NCBI RefSeq assembly: GCF_003355155.1
Contig: NZ_CP031320.1
Span: 2,218,369-2,282,368, forward strand
Reading direction: 5' to 3'
Origin: Streptomyces armeniacus
GTDB lineage: Bacteria > Actinomycetota > Actinomycetes > Streptomycetales > Streptomycetaceae
DNA: 64,000 nt
Below, one piece after another: positions 8,727-10,596 of this stretch. The first letter of the stretch is position 1; each line of letters opens with the position of its first letter. A program made the translations under genes and the position numbers. The notes below the pieces were generated by a model. That model was not told the origin of the DNA and ran no database searches. It saw only the letters and a list, made by a program, of their open reading frames with translations.

Positions 8727-8759
8727 GACAGTCTCCTTCAATGCATGAATTGCCGATCC

Positions 8760-8794
8760 GCTATGGTGAGCACGGCTTGGTTAGGCAAGCCTTA
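8760..8794 (-). promoter_or_regulatory. Predicted acnA promoter overlapping an iron-box-like operator
   Basis: On the minus strand, TTGCCT (8783-8788) and CATAGC (8760-8765) are spaced by 17 bases, giving a leader of about 27 bases. The plus-strand 19-mer CTTGGTTAGGCAAGCCTTA (8776-8794) matches the DtxR/IdeR/DmdR consensus TTAGGTTAGGCTAACCTAA at 14 of 19 positions and covers the -35. Iron-loaded DmdR binding here would repress aconitase; the direction of control is inferred from site placement. Confidence 0.5.
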
Positions 8795-8827
8795 CTCGCA
8801 AGCGGTGGCGTGTGCGCCTACGACAGG

Positions 8828-8845
8828 TATCTCGATGTCGAGATA
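8828..8845. promoter_or_regulatory. Palindromic operator candidate 1 (TATCTC...GAGATA)
   Basis: TATCTCGATGTCGAGATA has 8-bp arms (TATCTCGA/TCGAGATA) around two bases. It lies about 100 bases upstream of the acnA start in the divergent region and closely resembles the palindrome at 9038-9055 next to the HTH-MurA start. Confidence 0.5.
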
Positions 8846-9037
8846 ACTCTAGTACACGACCACCGCACGGTCATGCGCGCCCTACCCCGCACCGCCGATT
8901 CCGGCGGACCCGAACAGGCGTCGAATCCCGCATGGCGGGTACCCGGGGCACATGCCGCGAACCGTACGGACGCGGCGGACGGCCGTCGCCGCCGCGCACG
9001 GGCCCGCGTCACCCATACGGCCGTCTCGTGCCGCGTC

Positions 9038-9058
9038 TATCTCACATCTGAGATATTG
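9038..9058 (+). promoter_or_regulatory. Palindromic operator candidate 2 over the HTH-MurA promoter
   Basis: TATCTCACATCTGAGATA (9038-9055) has 7-bp arms around CATC. Its right arm runs into TATTGT (9053-9058), a plausible -10 element that would place the transcription start at or next to the ATG at 9067. No ribosome site is visible, so the mRNA is probably leaderless. Binding here should block transcription, which suggests autoregulation by the HTH protein encoded just downstream. Confidence 0.5.
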
Positions 9059-9066
9059 TCTCCCTC

Positions 9067-10596
9067 ATGACCGACGATTACCTCGCCCGGATCGGGCACT
9101 TGATCCGCGATGCCCGTCAGCACCGCGGCTGGACACAGGCACAACTCGCGGAGGCGCTGGGCACCAGTCAGAGCGCGGTGAACCGCATCGAGCGGGGCAA
9201 TCAGAACATCAGTCTTGAGATGATCGCCCGCATCTCGGAAGCCCTCGACAGCGAGATCGTCTCGCTCGGGTACTCCGGCCCGATGCATCTGCGCGTCGTC
9301 GGCGGGCGGCAGCTGTCCGGCAGCATCGACGTGAAGACGAGCAAGAACGCGTGCGTCGCGCTGCTGTGCGCCACGCTCCTCAACTCGGGCCGTACGGTGC
9401 TGCGCCGCGCCGCGCGCATCGAGGAGGTCTACCGCATCCTCGAGGTGCTGGCCTCCATCGGCGTTCGCGCGCGCTGGATCAACGACGGCGCCGACCTGGA
9501 GATCGTGCCGCCCGCCGAGCTCGACCTCGCGGCGATCGACGCGGACGCGGCACGCCGTACGCGCAGCATCATCATGTTCCTGGGCCCGCTGCTGCACCGT
9601 ACGGACCAGTTCCGCATCCCGTACGCGGGCGGCTGCGACCTCGGCACCCGCACCGTGCAGCCGCACATGATCGCGCTGCGCCGGTTCGGGCTGGACATCA
9701 CCGCGACCGAGGGCCTGTACCACGCGCGGGTGGACCGCTCCGTCGCCCCGGACCGCCCCATCGTGCTGACCGAGCGCGGCGACACGGTGACCGAGAACGC
9801 CCTCCTGGCGGCGGCGCGGCACCCGGGCGTGACCGTCATCCGCAACGCGTCGTCCAACTACATGGTCCAGGACCTGTGCTTCTTCCTGGAGCAGCTGGGC
9901 GTCCGCGTCGAGGGCATCGGCACGACCACGCTGACCGTGCACGGCCTCGCGCAGATCGACGTCGACGTCGACTACTCCCCCTCCGAGGACCCGGTCGAGG
10001 CGATGAGCCTGCTCACGGCCGCGGTGGTGACGGAGTCCGAGCTGACGGTACGGCGTGTGCCGGCGGAGTTCCTGGAGATCGAGCTCGCCGTACTCGAGGA
10101 GATGGGGCTCGACTTCGACCGCACGCCCGAGTACGCGGCGGACAACGGGCGTACGCGCCTCACCGACCTCACCGTGCGGCCCTCCAAGCTGGAGGCGCCC
10201 ATCGACAAGATCCACCCGATGCCGTTCCCCGGCCTGAACATCGACAACGTCCCCTTCTTCGCGGCCATCGCCGCCGCCGCGCAGGGCCAGACGCTGATCC
10301 ACGACTGGGTCTACGACAACCGCGCGATCTATCTCACCGACCTCAACCGGCTCGGTGGCCGCCTTCAACTCCTGGACCCGCACCGCGTCCTGGTCGACGG
10401 CCCGATCCGCTGGCGCGCCGCCGAGATGATGTGCCCGCCGGCGCTCCGGCCCGCGGTGGTCGTGCTGCTCGCGATGATGGCGGCGGAGGGCACGTCGGTG
10501 CTGCGCAACGTGTACGTGATCAACCGCGGCTACGAGGACTTGGCCGAGCGCCTCAACGAGGTGGGCGCGCAGATCGAGACGTTCCGCGACATCTGA
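9067..10596 (+). CDS. XRE-type HTH fused to a MurA-like UDP-GlcNAc 1-carboxyvinyltransferase domain
   Basis: A 509-residue two-domain protein. Residues 1-68 form a Cro/CI-type HTH (QLAEALGTSQSAVNRIERGN). Residues about 75-509 are an EPSP-synthase-fold MurA domain. Key MurA positions are kept: the Lys-Asn pair (Lys93-Asn94, in KTSKNACVALLCATLL) and the Cys loop (Cys190, in YAGGCDLGTRTVQPH). MurA transfers enolpyruvate from PEP to UDP-GlcNAc, but bacterial MurA has no DNA-binding domain. The protein may be a second MurA, a regulator using the fold as a UDP-GlcNAc/PEP sensor, or both. It resembles S. coelicolor SCO5998 by context. Divergent from acnA and probably leaderless. Confidence 0.88.
   Translation: MTDDYLARIGHLIRDARQHRGWTQAQLAEALGTSQSAVNRIERGNQNISLEMIARISEALDSEIVSLGYSGPMHLRVVGGRQLSGSIDVKTSKNACVALLCATLLNSGRTVLRRAARIEEVYRILEVLASIGVRARWINDGADLEIVPPAELDLAAIDADAARRTRSIIMFLGPLLHRTDQFRIPYAGGCDLGTRTVQPHMIALRRFGLDITATEGLYHARVDRSVAPDRPIVLTERGDTVTENALLAAARHPGVTVIRNASSNYMVQDLCFFLEQLGVRVEGIGTTTLTVHGLAQIDVDVDYSPSEDPVEAMSLLTAAVVTESELTVRRVPAEFLEIELAVLEEMGLDFDRTPEYAADNGRTRLTDLTVRPSKLEAPIDKIHPMPFPGLNIDNVPFFAAIAAAAQGQTLIHDWVYDNRAIYLTDLNRLGGRLQLLDPHRVLVDGPIRWRAAEMMCPPALRPAVVVLLAMMAAEGTSVLRNVYVINRGYEDLAERLNEVGAQIETFRDI

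Follow-up and report, generated by a model that had tools for sequence, protein, structure and literature searches.

The second MurA of Streptomyces armeniacus (murA2, 9067..10596, forward strand; 509 aa) carries an N-terminal XRE helix-turn-helix and is called HTH-MurA here. With a probability of roughly three in four, HTH-MurA is a catalytically active MurA and also the repressor of its own gene, acting through a palindrome over its −10 box, and the related palindrome at the adjacent aconitase gene acnA is a separate site belonging to TamR. The window, i.e., the whole stretch of 64,000 nucleotides that was analysed and to which coordinates refer unless a locus is named, lies in a genome of 8.08 Mb on one contig. 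We hypothesize that HTH-MurA combines a catalytically competent UDP-GlcNAc enolpyruvyl transferase with a HipB-like XRE helix-turn-helix and that, as a dimer, it would use this helix-turn-helix to bind an 18-bp palindrome overlapping the −10 box of the leaderless promoter from which its gene is read. The bound protein would repress its own transcription, and in this way the cell would fix how much of the first committed peptidoglycan enzyme it makes.

The fusion is read directly from the protein. In a domain profile search, the HTH_3 domain matched residues 13–64 (9103..9258, forward strand) with 60.3 bits, above the gathering score of 23, and the EPSP_synthase domain matched residues 79–496 with 140.4 bits, which bears out the XRE–MurA fusion described in the earlier note. 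The MurA (enolpyruvyl transferase) domain occupies residues 75–507 (9289..10587, forward strand), and the MurA fold spans all of it. The PDB matches of the helix-turn-helix showed similarity to HipB, and T33, S34, Q35, R40, I41, and E42 in the recognition-helix region were invariant in an alignment of 48 sequences. HTH-MurA is probably the orthologue of SCO5998 / vnz_28735, judging by the shared acnA neighbour and the annotation rather than by direct sequence comparison. Because a canonical MurA1 also exists in Streptomyces, HTH-MurA represents a second MurA there. It was found in 43 of the 148 genomes of the class and in 13 of 70 genera, its named relatives including Dermacoccus, Ornithinimicrobium, Austwickia, and Terrabacter. 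No HTH-MurA was found outside the class in a sample of the phylum (197 genomes), where the three other matches cover residues 76–505 only, like canonical MurA. The helix-turn-helix is wholly or partly missing from three metagenomic relatives (P0124, P0139, P0141), owing either to start-codon calls or to real losses. By eye, ten neighbourhoods outside Streptomyces showed no shared gene neighbourhood of HTH-MurA. A YbdK/GCS2 glutamate-cysteine-ligase-like gene lies downstream of HTH-MurA in the window (12020-13186), with one ORF between, and such a gene is also found directly downstream in the distant carrier G062 (L154 7644-8879); this may be chance. In Streptomyces G041, matches to parts of HTH-MurA with 65–80% identity lie between acnA and the intact gene (L120 5076-5582) and are perhaps the remnants of a second copy.

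The operator through which HTH-MurA is predicted to regulate its own gene is TATCTCACATCTGAGATA, with YATCTCAYATSTGAGATA as the common form. It is located at 9038..9055 on the forward strand, over the likely −10, and its end overlaps the −10 box TATTGT (9054..9059, forward strand), 7 nt from the ATG. All 81 Streptomyces loci, i.e., the window and 80 named loci, had the site 28–30 bp before the start codon; 10 copies were exact and 71 had a single mismatch. Conservation across streptomycetes, which the earlier note had singled out as a check on the palindromes, was seen here and also on the acnA side, at all 58 loci holding acnA. The site lay within two mismatches in 28 of 30 loci of other genera (7 exact, 19 with one mismatch, 2 with two) and had three mismatches in one more (L108). 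The remaining locus, L140 of genome G127, had no credible upstream site, and its HTH-MurA reads in two frames; the site is missing there although no MurA besides HTH-MurA was found in that genome. For the Nocardioidaceae, 28 loci of the best-scoring HTH-MurA matches and six others were read, 34 in all: 29 sites were exact, three had one mismatch and two had two, and all 34 included a TANNNT hexamer. This hexamer starts with the last TA of the site (81/81 in Streptomyces; 12/12; 27/30 in other genera) and is absent at L105, L138, and L140. It ends 6–7 nt before the ATG in Streptomyces, so the transcript is probably leaderless or near-leaderless; in other genera, the distance from the hexamer to the nearest start is scattered, partly because overlapping GTG or TTG codons were taken by the script. 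A palindrome over the gene's own −10, conserved together with the HTH-MurA gene across several actinobacterial families, is the layout of a predicted autorepressor, and autorepression is suggested by the combination of this position with an invariant helix-turn-helix encoded in the same gene. MurA is usually treated as a monomer, and since a palindrome needs a dimer, this counts against an autorepressor.

The sequence of the site was also followed through whole genomes. Exact NATCTCN6GAGATA was searched in 50 genomes: of 30 carriers, 9 had it at HTH-MurA, and 3 of 20 non-carriers had copies elsewhere with other cores, such as ATCTCAACGTTGAGATA adjoining a MarR-type gene in G074. The strict form ATCTCAN4TGAGAT occurred in 56 of 61 Streptomyces genomes, with one copy in 45 and two in 11, and was absent from five, all counted without regard to the presence of HTH-MurA. 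Eight of the 11 second copies were read (those of G025, G028, and G055 were left out), together with the single copies of G040 and G047 and one copy from G074. The single copy of G047 is located at HTH-MurA itself, 4.7 Mb from the acnA-type site, and the only copy of G040 sits inside an unrelated gene. Copies with an ACGT core (G002, G021, G039, G042; also G074) are intergenic and, by eye from ORFs, lie by MarR-type or transport and nitroreductase-like genes; those of G029, G053, and G052 (second) are intragenic, and the copy of G049 was left unplaced. A wider HTH-MurA regulon in Streptomyces was considered and rejected, as the strict motif is mostly single-copy and the second copies that were read and placed are intragenic or linked to MarR or transport genes. 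The form ATCTCAACGTTGAGAT, intergenic at L222, L223, L224, and L225 (also L221) and, by eye, next to MarR-type, transport, or nitroreductase-like genes, has the appearance of an operator for a different MarR regulator.

The murA-side palindrome could instead be the site of another regulator common to these families, with the helix-turn-helix acting elsewhere or being vestigial. Other regulators do act at murA2 in Streptomyces: BldM-WhiI footprints cover the murA2 promoter of S. venezuelae (PMC4125116), and a SigB-dependent promoter is present at SCO5998 (PMC8346170). A candidate BldM-WhiI heterodimer half-site, TCACCC, was recognised by sequence match at 9009..9014 on the forward strand, and in 51 of 81 Streptomyces loci the 60 bp preceding the operator contain TCACC[CA]. 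The BldM motif TCACcCgnncGgGTGA, however, is a different sequence from the palindrome, and the printed SigB promoter sequence lies about 350–370 bp upstream of murA2, away from the operator, at the two loci where it was found (L058 and L081). Moreover, the palindrome tracks HTH-MurA at a fixed place across several families, even far from acnA (G047, L231), and both the invariant recognition-helix region and the mostly single-copy strict motif, with its second copies in the settings described, speak against a foreign regulator, which we regard as unlikely. In S. venezuelae, overexpressed murA2 did not bring about the exploration phenotype that whiI overexpression causes (PMC11005364). The published murA2 work, in the parts available to us, concerns inputs to the gene and not the HTH-MurA protein as a regulator; our literature search found no paper on an HTH-MurA or its autoregulation, and no binding, repression, or enzyme assay for it. 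Autorepression by HTH-MurA thus remains our preferred reading of the murA-side site.

In the enzyme half, K93, N94, R166, C190, R195, D393, R419, R461, and R487 were invariant in 125/125 sequences of the HTH-MurA family, a set of related and in part nearly identical proteins from the window, Streptomyces, and other genera, from which alignments of less than about 480 residues were left out. The corresponding catalytic and PEP-site residues of E. coli MurA are K22, N23, R91, C115, R120, D305, R331, R371, and R397. The alignment places Lys93-Asn94 and Cys190, noticed earlier as retained, at K22-N23 and C115 of the E. coli enzyme. On the other hand, the residues on the UDP side of the cleft in canonical MurA (in E. 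coli, P121, V161-G164, A186-E190, and D369) have given way to others almost throughout the family, whereas canonical MurA1 of the same genome, read by eye, keeps the usual ones. HTH-MurA also scores 300.7 on the murA equivalog model TIGR01072, below its cut-off of 392.7, and 312.2 on the subfamily model PRK09369, above its threshold of 297. The replacement of the UDP-side residues as a block and the low equivalog score would suit a catalytically dead or re-purposed enolpyruvyl transferase, serving as a sensor only or acting on another substrate (compare NikO). Against this stand the invariant catalytic and PEP-site residues and, above all, the genomes in which HTH-MurA is the only MurA found. 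By searching TIGR01072 over 34 carrier genomes, a canonical MurA above the cut-off was found in 20. In the remaining 14 (12 of family f22 and two of f28), the sole match at E 1e-40 was HTH-MurA, and PF00275 recovered HTH-MurA (in two pieces in G127) and one high-scoring match taken for AroA, with no third member. One of the f22 proteins (L113) has the same sequence as a Nocardioides alkalitolerans protein, and f22 thus corresponds to Nocardioidaceae. HTH-MurA was present in 79 of 80 Nocardioidaceae genomes; in 54 of the 80, the single MurA match, below the canonical cut-off, was HTH-MurA, and 24 had a canonical MurA besides it, although assemblies that are 95–100% complete can miss a second murA. 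HTH-MurA is fragmented in G406, and neither kind of MurA was found in G444 (97% complete), possibly because of an assembly gap. Peptidoglycan synthesis requires MurA. As the only MurA of a genome, HTH-MurA must work, unless a MurA too distant to be recognised exists or one is missing from the assembly. It is therefore improbable that the domain is dead or re-purposed, and another substrate, first suspected from the altered UDP pocket, was set back by the same result. The enzyme half of HTH-MurA probably works, as far as sequence can tell. The earlier note had allowed it residual activity; the activity agrees with the intact catalytic set, and the word residual is probably too weak for the sole MurA of 54 of 80 Nocardioidaceae genomes. 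A third MurA-like gene (G154:C1:3472550-3473815, 239.3 bits) was observed in a Streptomyces genome.

The second palindrome lies on the other side of the intergenic region. The acnA gene (aconitate hydratase, 6009..8729, reverse strand) starts with GTG at 8729, and the predicted TamR operator, TATCTCGATGTCGAGATA (TATCTCGACATCGAGATA in the acnA direction), is located at 8828..8845 on the reverse strand, about 100 bp upstream; both palindromes were located where the earlier note had put them. That note took both for sites of HTH-MurA, by which a single regulator would couple cell-wall precursor status to aconitase. In favour of this, the two sites have the outer hexamers and the spacing in common, and the only two exact matches of TATCTC-N6-GAGATA in the whole genome are these; one further place matches with one mismatch, and an exact match to the reversed control pattern occurs nowhere. 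With three mismatches allowed, the window has five matches vs. a shuffle mean of 3.81, i.e., no excess, so the weight rests on the exact matches. The cores differ, being GA-NN-TC at acnA and mostly A-YATS-T at murA2. In a Streptomyces genus sample, an exact TATCTCGATGTCGAGATA copy was found in 61/61 genomes, its adjacency to acnA being read for part of them only.

TamR, a MarR-family protein of S. coelicolor and thus a protein separate from HTH-MurA, represses the aconitase gene according to a review (PMC5487221). The relaxed acnA-type motif TNTCTYGANNTCRAGANA, with at most one mismatch, marks five places in the S. armeniacus genome vs. one for the reversed control. These adjoin acnA; a trans-aconitate methyltransferase gene (tam; at 307.7 bits it narrowly misses the cut-off of 320) and, divergent from it, a MarR-family gene, which is the likely tamR (L142:1552-2046); malate synthase A; monomeric isocitrate dehydrogenase (841 of 950 bits over the first 492 residues, where the locus end cuts it); and malate dehydrogenase mdh (47350-48339, reverse strand). 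At the last of these, the TamR-type palindrome TCTCTCTACGTCAAGAGA (48431-48448), with one mismatch to the relaxed motif, lies about 90 bp upstream, and mdh is a possible further TamR target. In the primary TamR papers, tam, malate synthase, and isocitrate dehydrogenase are reportedly TamR targets. From this gene set, the statement of the review, and the reported targets, the acnA-side palindrome most likely belongs to TamR and not to HTH-MurA, for it marks genes of the TCA and glyoxylate cycles genome-wide. None of the other TamR-type sites of this genome has both hexamers exact, so the acnA site could serve two regulators. Its distribution, however, follows acnA. The gene was inside the fetched flank at 58 of 80 named Streptomyces loci, and the exact site was found in all 58 and in none of the other 22; the S. 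armeniacus locus likewise has it. In 58 loci (the window and 57 named), the SFDAR codons close to the start of acnA are 110–191 bp away from the site, whereas murA2 can be as near to it as about 200 bp or as far as 2.9 kb. Thirteen stretches with exact acnA-type copies were also read, mostly from genomes holding more than one copy: four had acnA, five an MFS transporter gene, and one (L125) was an HTH-MurA site; the two copies of L119 were left without an explanation, and those of L126 and L127 match none of these settings and may have arisen by chance. The form beside the MFS gene, TATCTCGAYRTCGAGATA (L116, L118, L121, L123, and L124, all Streptomyces), is apparently a TamR-type target, and these five extra copies again point away from HTH-MurA. 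An iron-box-like sequence, a possible DmdR1 site with 5/19 mismatches to the consensus used, is located at 8776..8794 (no strand assigned) between the acnA-side palindrome and acnA; a DmdR1 site has been predicted between SCO5998 and SCO5999 (PMC12161575).

Carriers outside Streptomyces have the palindrome at HTH-MurA, and tblastn found an acnA homologue in 0/10 wider HTH-MurA neighbourhoods from other genera. In Streptomyces G047, HTH-MurA together with its own site is far removed from the acnA-type site, as given above. The nearby GlcNAc import operon that had inspired the idea of coupling is indeed present, with an NgcE match at 4235-5659 (590.9 bits vs. a cut-off of 399.65). By the gene neighbours of the motif, the spacing, and the carriers outside Streptomyces, a single regulator for both palindromes is very improbable and was rejected. 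Two adjacent genes, each with an operator of its own, account best for the link to aconitase.

We return to HTH-MurA as an active, autorepressing MurA. Among known systems, canonical MurA (TIGR01072; E. coli MurA) differs from it in lacking the N-terminal helix-turn-helix and the predicted operator at its own promoter, and in the UDP-side residues and equivalog score described above. PutA, BirA, and NadR are trigger enzymes or enzyme-regulators that have a DNA-binding domain and control their own pathway; HTH-MurA is likewise an enzyme with a DNA-binding domain, whereas its predicted target is its own gene. The helix-turn-helix resembles that of HipB-type XRE autorepressors, in keeping with the predicted autoregulation, and the HipB operator, given as TATCC-N8-GGATA in PMC3376134, has the same length (18 bp) and layout as the predicted HTH-MurA operator. 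HipB, however, is paired with a toxin, and HTH-MurA is fused to a metabolic enzyme. In Streptomyces, HTH-MurA would act as the second MurA, from a promoter also bound by BldM-WhiI during development. Upon binding UDP-GlcNAc the MurA cleft closes, and the enzyme also forms a Cys-PEP adduct, of which structures exist. Cleft closure or the adduct could shift the HTH pair, and a substrate or product in the MurA cleft would then change DNA binding by HTH-MurA. We tentatively propose such a substrate-gated autorepressor, in which occupancy of the cleft by UDP-GlcNAc, PEP, or UDP-MurNAc may switch DNA binding; gating by substrate would be a natural next step after autorepression.

A palindrome pair that looks shared can conceal two unrelated regulators. 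To our knowledge, the known control of MurA acts mainly on the protein, e.g., through CwlM in mycobacteria; autorepression by HTH-MurA, if true, would be a feedback acting directly at the gene for the first committed step in wall synthesis. It would also be a single-site, single-gene system, comprising one protein and one promoter fragment. The hosts of HTH-MurA are industrially and environmentally important actinobacteria, some of them seemingly without another MurA. If HTH-MurA is gated as well, the enzyme that commits material to peptidoglycan would read its own workload and set the output of its own gene. In most of the Nocardioidaceae sampled, one presumably essential protein would then serve wall synthesis as enzyme and as sensor-regulator alike.
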